The position numbers were made by a program, and so were the translations under genes. The notes below the pieces were generated by a model. The model was not told the origin of the DNA. It was given only the letters and a program-made list of their open reading frames with translations, and searched no databases. This document shows positions 30,187 through 35,235 of a DNA stretch of 64,000 nt, piece after piece (within the stretch, counting starts at the first letter, position 1; every line of letters starts with the position of its first letter). The stretch spans positions 2,232,001 to 2,296,000 of the forward strand of contig NZ_CP083582.1 in the NCBI RefSeq assembly GCF_020091585.1. The letters run 5' to 3'. Source of the DNA: Kovacikia minuta CCNUW1 (GTDB lineage Bacteria; Cyanobacteriota; Cyanobacteriia; Leptolyngbyales; Leptolyngbyaceae).

Positions 30187-31146
30187 CTAACGTCCCCTGG
30201 CTAACTCCCGAATCACCTGATCTGCCGATCGGGGTTCCCAACCCAGTTCTCGCCGTGCTTTACTGCCATCAACGCGGACGCAGCGATCGTACACATAATG
30301 AACCCGTTCCCGGCTCAGCGGGGTTTGCCAGGAAAACAGCCGACCGATCGGATCGAGCAGATTGCCGACCATCCGGACGAGAAACTCTGGGGCTTCCGCT
30401 GGAGCGGGAATCCCGGATTCTTGACTAAAAATTTCAAACATTTCGCGGGTGGTCATGTCCCCGGCTGAGATGATGTAATGTTCTCCCGGTTTTCCCCGCT
30501 CAGCCGCCAGGATCATCGCATTTGCCAGGTCATCCACATGCACAATCCCAGTCACCCGGCTGCCACCTGCCCATAGTTTCAATCTGCCTTTGAGAAATTG
30601 GTTGAGTACGGGAGCAAAGTGGGGGTCATCCGCCCCAAAAATTCCAGAAGGAAGCACACTGGTGACGGCAAATCCCTGGGCTGCTGCCTGATCAACAAGC
30701 TGTTGGGCTTCATATTTGGTGCGGTCATAGGCTGATGAAAAGCTTTTCTGAGTCCGCTGGTAGGTTTCGTCGATGGTTTTCCCCTGGGTATCGCCAAAGA
30801 TTCCGATCGTGCTGCAATAAACCATTTTGGAAACACCTGCTGCCTGGGCAGTTTCCAACACGGCACGGGTTCCTGCGACATTCACCCGTTCCATTTCGGC
30901 AGCATTGACCAGTCCCAGTTCCACATAGGCAGCAACATGGAAAACGGTATCAACTCCAGTCATGGCAGTTTTGAGGGCGGTGCGATCGCAGATATCTCCA
31001 TTCACCAGTTGCACGGTGCAATTTTTCAATCGTGACAGGTTACTCGATCGCCGCACTAGTCCGACCACCTCATTCCCTCTCTGTTCCAGTGCCTTAACCA
31101 GGTGAGAGGCTGTGAATCCATTGGCTCCGGTGACAAGTGCTTTCAT
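30187..31146 (-). CDS. NAD-dependent epimerase/dehydratase (extended SDR)
   Basis: A 319-residue protein. The N-terminal nucleotide-binding motif is TGANGFTASHL (third Gly replaced by Ala) and the catalytic pair is Y-D-R-T-K (about residue 142). CSTIGIFG and HVDDLANAM are usual for extended SDRs of the dihydroflavonol reductase/HpnA type. The substrate cannot be told. It lies in a minus-strand run with methyltransferases, but gaps of more than 100 bp argue against a tight operon. Confidence 0.88.
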   Translation of the reverse strand: MKALVTGANGFTASHLVKALEQRGNEVVGLVRRSSNLSRLKNCTVQLVNGDICDRTALKTAMTGVDTVFHVAAYVELGLVNAAEMERVNVAGTRAVLETAQAAGVSKMVYCSTIGIFGDTQGKTIDETYQRTQKSFSSAYDRTKYEAQQLVDQAAAQGFAVTSVLPSGIFGADDPHFAPVLNQFLKGRLKLWAGGSRVTGIVHVDDLANAMILAAERGKPGEHYIISAGDMTTREMFEIFSQESGIPAPAEAPEFLVRMVGNLLDPIGRLFSWQTPLSRERVHYVYDRCVRVDGSKARRELGWEPRSADQVIRELARGR

Positions 31147-31303
31147 GGGGAAGGTATAGCAGTAAGGATGAAGGATGAAGCATGAGGGATGAGGTCAAAG
31201 GCATGACTAACAAGCTGCTTGGGTTCGCTAATTGTCCTAGCGTACCTGGTGTTGCTGCGATATAGGTGCCGATATGTGGGTGCTGATTGCATCAAACATC
31301 CTC

Positions 31304-32134
31304 TCATATCACTGGCTTTTTCCCACTGACAATGAAGGCTGTAAAAGAACTAAAAAATTCCTGGGACTGGTCTCGTTGGTTCAGTTCTTCTAGCCACTCC
31401 TGGGCTTCCTGTGGGCTTACAATTCCTATTTCTTTAGCCTGGTGAGCAGTTTGAGCCAGATCAAAAACTTGATCAGCTAACTCAAATTGGGTGATCACCA
31501 GTGTTTCAGGGCTAACCTGAATATTTATCAAACCAGCCTGGTGAAAGTTCCTTCGCAGGCTACGTCCAACCCAGGGGGCGGGAAAGCTGTCGCACCAGAA
31601 GTTGAGAAGTTTACGGGTAATTGGGTGATTTTCCGAATCGATCGTAAACGTTTCCCAATCGGGTTCCATTGCTACAAGATAACCACCGGGATGAAGTACT
31701 CGCACCATTTCCCCGATCGCCCGTTCCGGATTGGCAATATGTTGCAAGGTGCGATCCACCCTGGCGCCATCAAAGGTGTCGTCTGCAAATGGCAAATCGT
31801 GTGCGTCTGCACAGACAAACTCAATGGGTAAATTCAAATTCTTTGCGTTGGCAATTGCCTGATCCAACATTGCCTGACTGCGATCAACTGCAATCACTTT
31901 GCCTGTATTCCCAACCCATTTTGCCAGGGCGATCGCATCCTCTCCCGTACCGCAGCCGACTTCTAGAACAGTTGCCCCTTCAACCAATTGCAGGAGATCA
32001 AATGTTTTTTGTTTGTAATATTTGTAGAACGCTAACGACTGCTGTAACTTGAGGCACTGAACAAATTTTTGAATGGCATTTGTGTGATCAACATCCTTAA
32101 AGCCACTTGCAAAATATGACATGTTTCTCCGCAT
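31304..32134 (-). CDS. Class I SAM-dependent methyltransferase
   Basis: A 276-residue enzyme. Motif I is LEVGCGTGED (about residue 57), motif II Asp is in VIAVDRSQAM, and the post-motif is DLPFADDTFDGARVDRTLQHI. It resembles small-molecule methyltransferases of the UbiE/arsenite type (Methyltransf_11/25). An inner ATG at 32122 has GGAG upstream and may be the true start. It is next to the channel-like fusion gene (50 bp). Confidence 0.88.
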   Translation of the reverse strand: MRRNMSYFASGFKDVDHTNAIQKFVQCLKLQQSLAFYKYYKQKTFDLLQLVEGATVLEVGCGTGEDAIALAKWVGNTGKVIAVDRSQAMLDQAIANAKNLNLPIEFVCADAHDLPFADDTFDGARVDRTLQHIANPERAIGEMVRVLHPGGYLVAMEPDWETFTIDSENHPITRKLLNFWCDSFPAPWVGRSLRRNFHQAGLINIQVSPETLVITQFELADQVFDLAQTAHQAKEIGIVSPQEAQEWLEELNQRDQSQEFFSSFTAFIVSGKKPVI

Positions 32135-32184
32135 AAACTGACTGGGTTAGTTGCGAACGATCTTTGAGCAGTCAACAATCGATT

Positions 32185-33405
32185 TTACGGTTGCCACTCT
32201 TTGAATTGCATGTGTTCAGGTCGTCCTTCTGAGTAGTTAATTTGTTCAATTTTGGCAGTGGGAATGAGCAATAGGATAGTTAGAACCAGCAGGGCTGGGC
32301 TGAGCCATCTGCCCCAATGAGCAATACGGCGATGTTTGTGATGGCGGGGGCGAAGGTAGAAGTACACCATTGTGATGATCACAATCAACAAAATATTCAC
32401 GTAAAGACTGAGAAAAGCAAGATCCATCAGCGTCAGATAGGGCACAGCGGGTTGCATGGAGCGGGTGGCAAGGTTAAAGGCGATCGCAGCAAAAAGCGCG
32501 GCTCCACCAAAGCCGGAGGCAGGGCTAGCTTCTTCCCAGAAAAGACCTACATACGCCAGCAGCCAGATCAGCAACATGGGAAAAACAATTCGCAGCAGTC
32601 CTGGAGCTAAATCTCGTCTGATTCGAAACACAAAGCTATAAATGGTCGTTTCGGCAAAGGGCAACTGCAAAGATCGATCGGGGGGGAGAAGGTTTAATTC
32701 CTCTGGTAGTTTTAATTGTTGGGTTGCAAAACCCGTTCCCATAATGCTCCAACCGCTCAGTTTGTCGGGAATCAGCTCATCTAGGGTGACGCGCTCTGGT
32801 TGGCTGACAAACCGAACATTCCCACAGGACACTTTTGGACACACTATTCGGATTGCCAGAAAATGGGCATCGACCGGAAAGGCTTCGTATCGGCTGTATG
32901 CCTTAAATTCCCCTTCATAAAGCATTGCATGAAACCGCTGTCCCGATGGTTGCTGATTCGATTGGGTCCAGACGGGAACTTTAATGACCGGATCGCCGAT
33001 CGCATTGGTAAATTTAACGCGGTCAGGTGACCAATTCTGCCCTGGTTGGGGCTTCCAACTAAACCAGATGATGAAATTCGCATGGAATTTATCGGGACTG
33101 GAATCACTCAACCGCAATTCTCGCAACTGGACTCCCGTCTGTACAGACAAGGGGGTTGCAACAGATTGGGCGGTTACCGGAGGGGCGATCGCAGTCCACC
33201 CCAGGGATAGACAGCAAAGCCAGGAAACCCGCGAGACCCGCTTAATGTTTGCCCCTGCGGCGGCAAGCGTTTGAGCGATTACAGCCCCAATTCCCTTAGA
33301 GCCACCCGTTATCAGTGCCCGTTTACCGAGAAGGTAAGGGTCGGGATAAGCAGGCAATGCCGAATCGGTTTGGGGGGCAATGGGAAAAGGGGGATTCATC
33401 GTCAT
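32185..33405 (-). CDS. Fusion: N-terminal SDR fragment joined to a pentameric ligand-gated ion channel-like protein
   Basis: Residues 1-54 are the start of a short-chain dehydrogenase, with the cofactor motif LITGGSKGIGAVIAQTLAAA; the rest of that enzyme is missing. Residues about 55-80 are a typical signal peptide (RVSWLCCLSLGWTAIAP, then VTAQS). They are followed by a beta-rich extracellular domain (about 85-265) and four membrane helices. Helix M1 begins RRDLAPGLLRIVFPMLLIW, M2-M3 follow with FAAIAFNLATRS, and M4 is at the C terminus after a basic loop (RPRHHKHRR). This is the layout of prokaryotic Cys-loop-type channels such as GLIC. The fusion point is near 33243. The channel has no own ATG at that point, so translation depends on the SDR start or on a non-standard codon. 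Confidence 0.8.
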   Translation of the reverse strand: MTMNPPFPIAPQTDSALPAYPDPYLLGKRALITGGSKGIGAVIAQTLAAAGANIKRVSRVSWLCCLSLGWTAIAPPVTAQSVATPLSVQTGVQLRELRLSDSSPDKFHANFIIWFSWKPQPGQNWSPDRVKFTNAIGDPVIKVPVWTQSNQQPSGQRFHAMLYEGEFKAYSRYEAFPVDAHFLAIRIVCPKVSCGNVRFVSQPERVTLDELIPDKLSGWSIMGTGFATQQLKLPEELNLLPPDRSLQLPFAETTIYSFVFRIRRDLAPGLLRIVFPMLLIWLLAYVGLFWEEASPASGFGGAALFAAIAFNLATRSMQPAVPYLTLMDLAFLSLYVNILLIVIITMVYFYLRPRHHKHRRIAHWGRWLSPALLVLTILLLIPTAKIEQINYSEGRPEHMQFKEWQP

Positions 33406-33414
33406 GGCTCATTG

Positions 33415-34302
33415 TTATGCATTGATTGCCCAAACTTGACCCATCAGCGGCATCCGGAAAAGAACGGTTGGATTATCGCTCAGTTGTTTGAAAGCTCCAA
33501 AGAGTTGATCAAATTCAGCCTGAGTGATCAAATTTTCCTGGACAAATGCTGGGGCAAGTTGGGCCAGGGAAAGTTCGATTAAACGTTTGCTTTCACCCTG
33601 GGAAGCCGAAGGAATGTGAAAGTTAACGGTTATCTGGGACAATCCTAATTCTGGAAACAGCTGGAACAGGTACGACCCTAAACGGTAGTGCTGGTTTCGC
33701 AAATCCGACAGGGCAAGATTCAGCTCTCTCATGCGGGTGAAAACTTCTGATTCAGGTTCGTCCATCATGAAGGAAAGATCCATTTCTTCACAAACAAGTT
33801 TGCCTCCTGGTTTGAGCAGGGCTTTTAATTGGCGCAATGCGGCGATCGGGTGGGTCAGATGCATCAGAACTAACCGACAATAAACCAGATCAAAGCTGTG
33901 CAAAGGCAGTCCCGGATTGTAGATATCTCCCACCTGGAACGTAACATTGGTTAGACCCGTTTCATTCGTTAAGATAAGAGCTTGTTCAATTTGGGCGGAA
34001 CTTGCATCCAATCCAATCACTGAACCCATGTCTCCAACTTGTTGGGCAAGCCAGCGAGTAATGTTGCCAGTACCGCAACCCACATCTACAACCTGCATAC
34101 CTTCATCCAGACCTGCTTCCAACAGCAAGCGCTCAGTTTCATGACCATAGAGTTGGTTGAGAATGTTCAACCGTTTGACTTCGATCGCGCCAATTGCCAA
34201 CGCATAACCAGAAGTATTAGAAGCAGGTTCTTTAACCGTTAGGTTTTGAGTTTGAAATCTATTTGCATCGAATGGTTGTTGAGTAATTACTGTAGCGTTC
34301 AT
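33415..34302 (-). CDS. Class I SAM-dependent methyltransferase
   Basis: A 295-residue enzyme with motif I VVDVGCGTGN (about residue 64), VIGLDASSAQ and LVYCRLVLMHLTHP. It is similar in plan to the methyltransferase on the other side of the fusion gene but is clearly a different protein. ATG 34302 is preceded by AAGGAG at ideal spacing. It ends 10 bp before the fusion gene, so the two are probably co-transcribed. Confidence 0.88.
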   Translation of the reverse strand: MNATVITQQPFDANRFQTQNLTVKEPASNTSGYALAIGAIEVKRLNILNQLYGHETERLLLEAGLDEGMQVVDVGCGTGNITRWLAQQVGDMGSVIGLDASSAQIEQALILTNETGLTNVTFQVGDIYNPGLPLHSFDLVYCRLVLMHLTHPIAALRQLKALLKPGGKLVCEEMDLSFMMDEPESEVFTRMRELNLALSDLRNQHYRLGSYLFQLFPELGLSQITVNFHIPSASQGESKRLIELSLAQLAPAFVQENLITQAEFDQLFGAFKQLSDNPTVLFRMPLMGQVWAINA

Positions 34303-34599
34303 GATTGACTCCTTCAGATCCAATCCTTTATTTGAACTAACTTCAGTGTCTTGTTTTGGAGGAGTTCTGCGGGTGAAGACGGATCACTTAAAGGTGAAGT
34401 TAGGGAAAAGTTTGGGACGATCGCAGAGCCAAAAGCCAGAAGCCAGGAACCAGAAGGGTTGTATAGCAGATGTCAGGTGTTAGCTGACAGGTGTCACGGG
34501 GGAAAACAACCCGTGTCAGAGGGTTTCCAGCGACATAGAATATCCTAACTTTTATGGCTATGGCAATATTTCTGATTCCTGGCTTGTATGGCTTGCTTC

Positions 34600-35235
34600 T
34601 CACCTTAACGATCGCTGCCGTTGCCCCAGATGGAGCGAAATCCTATACCGCTGTTGCTCAGGTGTAATTGCACAGTCGGCGATCGGTTGGTCGGGGGGGC
34701 ACTTCACTTCAGAAGCAGGCTCCCACTCTGCCTGCACGATCGCCAAATTATTCGATCGGCGATAGGCTGTCGCCATTCCCGTCGGTCCCCCCGCGGCGTA
34801 GGATGGATCTTCCCCCCAGCCTAATTCTGTAAATAGAGCACCAATCTCCTGGATCACAGTTGCAGGCGAAGTAAAGTTCCGACCTGTGCCCGTTGCCCTT
34901 AACACGCATCCAGTGCCGCTCTTTTGATGAATCCCATCCTGAAAAGCTCCAATGGCGAAGCTCACCCTCACCTTTAGCTTTTGAGCAAGCAGTTTTTGCA
35001 AGCCCTGGCATTGGGTTTTGGGCAGCGGGATAAAATCTGACCGATTTAATAAAGGGGTTGCCTGGGGACGTGGACCGGGTTCATGTGGCGAATTGGCGAG
35101 AGGATTTGCTGAACAGGGGGTAGCCAGAACGACCAACCCCAAAATGATTAAAGGAACTTGCCAATCTCGAACCACAGCATCTTTCTCCTGGCGATCGCCC
35201 ATACCCTTTATCCAATTTTTCCATGCTTTGATCAT
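34600..35235 (-). CDS. Exported protein of unknown function
   Basis: A 211-residue protein. Hydrophobic residues about 26-44 (WQVPLIILGLVVLATPCSA) form a signal peptide or lipoprotein signal, with a long charged N terminus before it; the ATG at 35202 is an alternative start. The mature part contains four Cys (TQC, GTGC, KCPP, DCAI) that could form two disulfides. No family recognised. Confidence 0.65.
   Translation of the reverse strand: MIKAWKNWIKGMGDRQEKDAVVRDWQVPLIILGLVVLATPCSANPLANSPHEPGPRPQATPLLNRSDFIPLPKTQCQGLQKLLAQKLKVRVSFAIGAFQDGIHQKSGTGCVLRATGTGRNFTSPATVIQEIGALFTELGWGEDPSYAAGGPTGMATAYRRSNNLAIVQAEWEPASEVKCPPDQPIADCAITPEQQRYRISLHLGQRQRSLR

Follow-up and report, generated by a model that had tools for sequence, protein, structure and literature searches.

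A pentameric ligand-gated ion channel homologue behind P450 and SDR gene debris in Kovacikia minuta, most likely left by deletions as an operon decayed

The stretch of DNA analysed here, called the window, comprises 64,000 nucleotides of the genome of Kovacikia minuta CCNUW1 (NZ_CP083582.1, positions 2,232,001 to 2,296,000). On its minus strand lies an ORF of 406 codons (32185-33405), which is open throughout and gives a protein of 406 aa. Three parts can be told apart in it. The first is the start of a P450 gene (33334-33405, residues 1-24, 79% DNA identity to the locus L039 described below), joined in frame to the second, the start of a short-chain dehydrogenase (SDR) gene whose rest appears to be deleted (33244-33333, residues 25-54, recognised by PF00106 and by alignments with SDR loci). 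The third is a signal-peptide-like stretch followed by the body of a pentameric ligand-gated ion channel (pLGIC) homologue (32185-33243, residues 55-406 plus stop, recognised by matches to GLIC), with a ligand-binding domain, the Pro-loop FPVD, the helices M1-M4 and a tail of about 25 residues. Upstream, a SAM-methyltransferase gene (33415-34323, minus strand; Pfam Methyltransf_31, E 2.3e-27) has its stop only 9 bp before the ORF, a spacing that fits an operon. Downstream, another SAM-methyltransferase gene (31304-32134; Pfam Methyltransf_25, E 2.2e-26) begins 50 bp after the ORF on the same strand, and from this position it is probably an operon member. The two SAM-methyltransferases are related to each other, and together with further minus-strand neighbours in the window at 30187-35235, among them an NAD-dependent epimerase/3-beta-HSD-like gene (30187-31146), they possibly make up one tailoring operon; the ORF at 34600-35235 has no Pfam match at E 1.

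The original prediction took residues 1-54 for a truncated SDR. This holds for residues 25-54, which carry the SDR cofactor motif TGxxxGxG as TGGSKGIG (residues 33-40) and show 44-68% identity over 27-31 aa to the SDR proteins of 16 loci, two of which are the same gene. Residues 1-24, however, match the first codons of the P450 gene in the second copy of the operon, L039 (window 33333-33436 against L039 7287-7390, 104 bp, 79%, E 9e-19), so that the supposed SDR fragment reads as nearly half P450. This DNA match spans the 3' end of the upstream methyltransferase, and the last methyltransferase codons also stand before the P450 gene in L039. The ORF is composed of codons for M and T, then P450 codons 1-22, which read MNPPFPIAPQTDSALPAYPDPY from the second ATG (33399), then SDR codons, and then the channel. 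PF00106 matches residues 1-54 with E 1e-4 and 22.3 bits over profile positions 1-27 (at most 1-30) of 195. The score falls below the Pfam cut-off of 26.6 bits, as is expected because only a fragment of the SDR is present. The whole Rossmann domain with the YxxxK catalytic motif is absent from the ORF, and the SDR piece is not an enzyme; likewise, only the first 22 residues of the P450 are there, and the P450 fold and haem-ligand cysteine are absent. The ORF has two joins, one at about 33333 (P450/SDR) and one at about 33243 (SDR/channel). Only the join at 33243 had been predicted, and it is there as read in a contig of 7.3 Mb. The exact position of the second breakpoint cannot be fixed, because CAAACATT by eye resembles both sides.

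Is the body of the ORF really a pLGIC? GLIC, the proton-gated channel of Gloeobacter violaceus (Glr4197), aligns over most of it, with the best E of 2.9e-8 for a mutant entry (residues 22-321 of 352) and 1.7e-7 for the wild type 3eam (residues 28-321 of 352). The homology runs across the ligand-binding domain and M1-M4, which identifies the body as the pLGIC homologue that had been predicted. In a 12-row alignment of the body with 11 relatives from other genomes, 13 columns are invariant, including the P and D of the Pro-loop (FPVD at 122-125 of the 352-aa body, with P123 and D125 invariant in 12/12 rows). The profile built from the 12 rows, of which the window body itself is one, matches the body with 285 bits over positions 54-363 of 365. 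The ORF is the only full-length match to this profile in the genome, and the second match is the channel fragment of L039. At E 1 the window protein has no match to a Pfam channel model (it stays below the cut-offs of Neur_chan_LBD and Neur_chan_memb), which indicates that the window channel is divergent. These models miss other members too: among six relatives, L006 and L008 pass both, L044 passes the ligand-binding model only, and L042, L045 and L004 pass neither.

The AlphaFold2 model, made with two sequences only, has a pLDDT of 43 and a pTM of 0.32, and shows a leader helix, strands and four long helices. The order of its elements would be that of a pLGIC, which is supporting evidence only, the model being too poor alone. 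With this low-confidence model as a Foldseek query, all 50 matches listed out of 877 are chains of the pLGIC superfamily (prob 0.89-1.00, TM about 0.2). As for the four helices that had been predicted, homology and the model give four, while hydropathy alone gives three strong ones in the body. The sequence evidence as a whole identifies the channel as a true, divergent pLGIC, a new member of a known family.

The likeness to GLIC extends to the Pro-loop (F/Y)PxD and to M1-M4 in the same order. GLIC stands in the 12-row alignment as L011, a locus from a genome of the same class that was matched to the PDB chain by eye, and it shares 22% identity with the window channel. There are also differences: the window channel has a shorter stretch in the ligand-binding domain, and it bears the C-terminal tail and a leader of foreign codons. 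The pore helix M2 is unusual. With prime numbers assigned by hand on the alignment block, it has S at -2' where GLIC has E, A at 0' in place of N, and F at 9' in place of I. A 2016 survey (PMC4795631) gives R or K at 0' in 79% and F at 9' in 13%. We also counted departures from well-conserved columns of the alignment. The body departs at 3 of 18 columns under the strictest conservation cut-off (0 to 4 in the other 11 rows), at 7 of 29 under the middle one (0 to 6) and at 14 of 40 under the loosest (2 to 15), and at all three it departs more often than most of the other 11 rows. Such departures, together with the unusual M2, would also fit a decaying gene.

Fusions of a type I periplasmic binding protein (PBP-I) with a pLGIC belong to the same superfamily, with 22-26% identity to the window channel. 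Eight loci from eight genomes (L004, L007, L009, L012, L041, L046, L055, L057) hold ORFs of 751-794 codons with a PBP-I domain at the N-terminus and, by similarity to the window body, a pLGIC at the C-terminus, a kind described by Tasneem et al. 2004 (PMC549065). Their N-terminal part is a periplasmic binding protein (Peripla_BP_6), whereas the leader of the window channel is 54 residues of gene debris. Another ORF, of 1255 codons and cut at the start of its locus (L005 1-3765, plus strand, G044:C193), begins with a PBP-I domain (PF13458, E 5e-39). Its pLGIC stretch is recognised by the window body in phmmer (E 1e-11) but by no Pfam channel model, and M4 is followed by an extracellular solute-binding domain (PF01547, E 8e-33). 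It may represent a channel with binding-protein domains at both ends, both of which would be periplasmic if the usual topology holds.

Where does the leader of the window channel come from? A second, separately decayed copy of the operon is found in the same genome and on the same contig (L039, G000:C1:850000-864000). Its gene order is methyltransferase end, P450, SDR start and channel start. Window 33245-33037 matches L039 8753-8976 with 77% DNA identity (E 3e-44). The P450 start in L039 reads MNPLFPIDPETDPALPGHPDPYPIYHQL and opens a frame of 180 codons. Pfam gives no match to this frame at 0.01; by tblastn it matches P450 loci of other genomes in 6 of 6 cases, once from residue 1, and then in 2 of 2. 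After a frameshift comes a second frame, of 259 codons and overlapping the first, which is P450 by PF00067 (E 3.8e-28), so the P450 body is present in L039 but split over two frames. The P450 stop overlaps an ATG (ATGA). Between this stop and the channel there is a DNA remnant of the SDR gene, which aligns to the SDR start of the window with a score of 36, the best of 2000 mononucleotide shuffles being 25. The stretch VTPTAPLLEITLETWD between the remnant and the channel was considered as the middle of the SDR and is not claimed as such, blastp against SDR proteins giving E of 0.02 or higher. The damage in L039 differs from that in the window, as it consists of the P450 frameshift, an SDR that is almost completely lost, and a channel that stops short at a dispersed element. 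The element at which this second channel copy ends (L039 8994-9140, G000:C1:858993-859139) has inverted arms of 33 nt that are 82% complementary. With 40 of 100 candidates scored, the genome shows at least 43 matches to it, its own copy counted, and the majority are short.

Since a second copy of the operon decayed separately in the same genome, the apparent SDR-channel fusion is best read as a scar. And since that copy keeps the order of P450, SDR start and channel start, the scar would be one of deletions across three genes. We consider it highly likely that at least two deletions in an operon of the order methyltransferase, P450, SDR, pLGIC and methyltransferase left the ORF as their scar; this likelihood belongs to the scar and not to a working channel. 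The most likely reading is thus that deletions scarred a decaying operon and that no purpose-built fusion protein arose; the fusion is most likely incidental, and it does not represent a new type of protein. Deletions between operon neighbours that fuse genes in frame are of an ordinary general kind. The present case resembles these in having neighbouring genes on the same strand, a deletion and a single frame, and differs in involving three genes and in having a second decayed operon copy that reveals the source. Note that the ancestral order from the methyltransferase end to the channel start is taken from L039, and the downstream methyltransferase from the window only; because no genome with an intact operon was found, this order rests on one decayed copy. 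A deletion that removed the rest of the SDR gene and the channel's own start had been predicted. Both losses are supported, but that account is incomplete, as at least one further deletion took most of the P450.

The deletion scar gives the following scenario. The P450 and the SDR would each have lost almost their whole length to deletions, and the channel its start codon; the deletions either left one frame by chance or were kept because one frame remained. The mRNA would start before the methyltransferase, and ribosomes would start at a P450 ATG, at 33399 or 33405. The first 57 or so residues might then serve as an over-long n-region of the channel signal peptide, cleaved near VTA-Q, and the remaining body could form a homopentameric plasma-membrane channel.

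When did the deletions take place? The codons that can be compared between the window and L039 are few. The 62 in the first part of the channel show 18 synonymous changes and 12 non-synonymous ones (dS 0.63, dN/dS 0.14, bootstrap 0.05-0.31), a test that covers 62 of the 352 channel codons with the other 290 outside it. The P450 starts differ by 7 synonymous and 7 non-synonymous changes over 22 codons (dS 0.72, dN/dS 0.21, no bootstrap). For the first part of the channel, most of the divergence between the copies took place under purifying selection; the same holds, more weakly, for the P450 start. The similar dS of the two parts fits one divergence of the whole operon, before both copies decayed. 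As the P450 start is now useless as a P450, its low dN/dS indicates that most of the divergence took place while both copies were intact. This puts the deletions late, and they are probably recent. It also follows that conservation of the leader, whose low dN/dS comes from an earlier intact P450, does not count in favour of a selected fusion, and there is no sign of selection on the leader.

There is a further question, whether a working channel is still made from this scar or the channel is already dead. We regard the chances as about even. The in-frame start candidates near the front of the ORF are the P450 ATGs and a TTG at codon 17, and the next one is at codon 86, past the signal-like stretch. 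With no in-frame ATG, GTG or TTG between codons 17 and 86, a channel with its signal peptide conventionally needs the P450 start; an exported channel would thus depend on a foreign start, or on a rare start such as the ATT at 33244-33246. The channel had been thought to rely on SDR expression signals. This has to be revised, because the front of the ORF is a P450 start plus an SDR start, which makes the methyltransferase-P450 operon the source of the expression signals. Scanning the region for promoters gave 5 promoter-like sites against 2.5 (sd 1.5) in shuffles, a count from which nothing is drawn, and the sites include two overlapping ones upstream of the methyltransferase.

If the channel is dead, the leader would abolish translation or export, and the frame would be open because the deletions are recent. 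We hold this to be a serious possibility, though somewhat short of an even chance. Neither copy retains an intact P450 or SDR, and in L039 the channel was cut at the dispersed repeat; the unusual M2 and the departures from conserved columns agree with decay, and so do 54 foreign residues placed before a signal core, WLCCLSLGWTAIA, that is only moderately hydrophobic. Against decay, the 352 channel codons contain no stop or frameshift. The coding score is positive only in the annotated frame of six, and at 0.167 per codon for the leader and 0.197 for the channel it lies within the range of other genes (0.097-0.442 for the 28 training ORFs of the window). Two random deletions would keep the frame about one time in 9, which argues weakly in the same direction.

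Three other explanations survive less well. The channel might initiate by itself from the ATT at 33244-33246, which would make the leader irrelevant. GGGG is seen five bases before this ATT, and a start here would give a signal peptide of normal length; but ATT start codons are very rare and nothing else speaks for this one, so we think it distinctly unlikely. An assembly artefact at 33243, at 33333 or at both is very improbable. The genome (8.56 Mb, 3 contigs, completeness 100) has an estimated contamination of 4.11%, which leaves some room for it, but the joined parts adjoin in the same order elsewhere on the same contig, which a random mis-join would not give, and both joins lie inside that 7.3 Mb contig with no N at either. 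Most improbable of all is a selected new protein in which the P450/SDR leader is functional, for example as a regulatory or anchoring N-terminus, since beyond the single open frame from P450 start to channel end it meets an SDR piece of 30 residues without the rest of the fold, a low dN/dS that the intact P450 already explains, and a 400-bp leader region with a DNA match in 1 of 58 genomes, its own (up to 11 candidates scored in most genomes).

Is the operon seen in other genomes? Channel-type matches outside the own genome show 19-32% identity in the samples of relatives, order and phylum. A search of genome contigs with the single protein gave 23 pattern stretches and no channel relative, the alignment-based search gave 45 stretches with one relative (Synechococcus sp. 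UW140, 22%), and a search of plasmids gave no channel relative. The methyltransferase was found at E 1e-45 in 1 of 386 genomes, its own (6 candidates scored per listed genome), and relatives at 42-47% occur on Nostoc and Calothrix plasmids. Scoring in the larger genome samples covered only part of the first-look candidates; absence from them is therefore soft evidence, most of all in the case of the methyltransferase. Around 8 P450 loci outside the own genome (6 of 14 and 2 of 9), the methyltransferase, P450, SDR and channel are never side by side. In L080 a methyltransferase match, a weak one (E 9e-4), lies about 4 kb from the P450; in L082 one stretch resembles a methyltransferase and another an SDR, both about 7-8 kb from the P450; and L100 has an SDR homologue about 3.5 kb downstream on the same strand. 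For four plasmid methyltransferase loci the gene tables, which are incomplete, annotate neither a P450 nor an SDR nearby, and the P450 and SDR pieces gave no tblastn match in them. The neighbourhoods of 20 channel relatives out of 33 (245,880 bases) were searched by tblastn at 1e-5 for the P450, SDR and methyltransferase, and no homologue turned up; the same queries matched 20 of 20 loci chosen for holding such genes. The operon link is known here from this genome alone, in two copies. The literature searched, with most subscription journals outside its scope, gave no report of a pLGIC in a P450 gene cluster or of such a fusion.

What could a channel do in such an operon? The 2016 survey (PMC4795631) gives no known biological role for pLGICs of unicellular organisms. 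One conjecture is that the genome once had two copies of an operon for tailoring a small molecule (methyltransferase, P450, SDR, channel, methyltransferase), in which the pLGIC was a receptor for the operon product or its export or resistance partner, with the channel frame still intact after the P450 and SDR were lost. We consider it unlikely as it stands. The locus adds a divergent pLGIC with an unusual pore to the family, and through two operon copies it ties a pLGIC to P450 and SDR enzymes. It also serves as a warning that what looks like a domain fusion may be the remains of adjacent genes; here, it was a second copy in the same genome that gave the answer.
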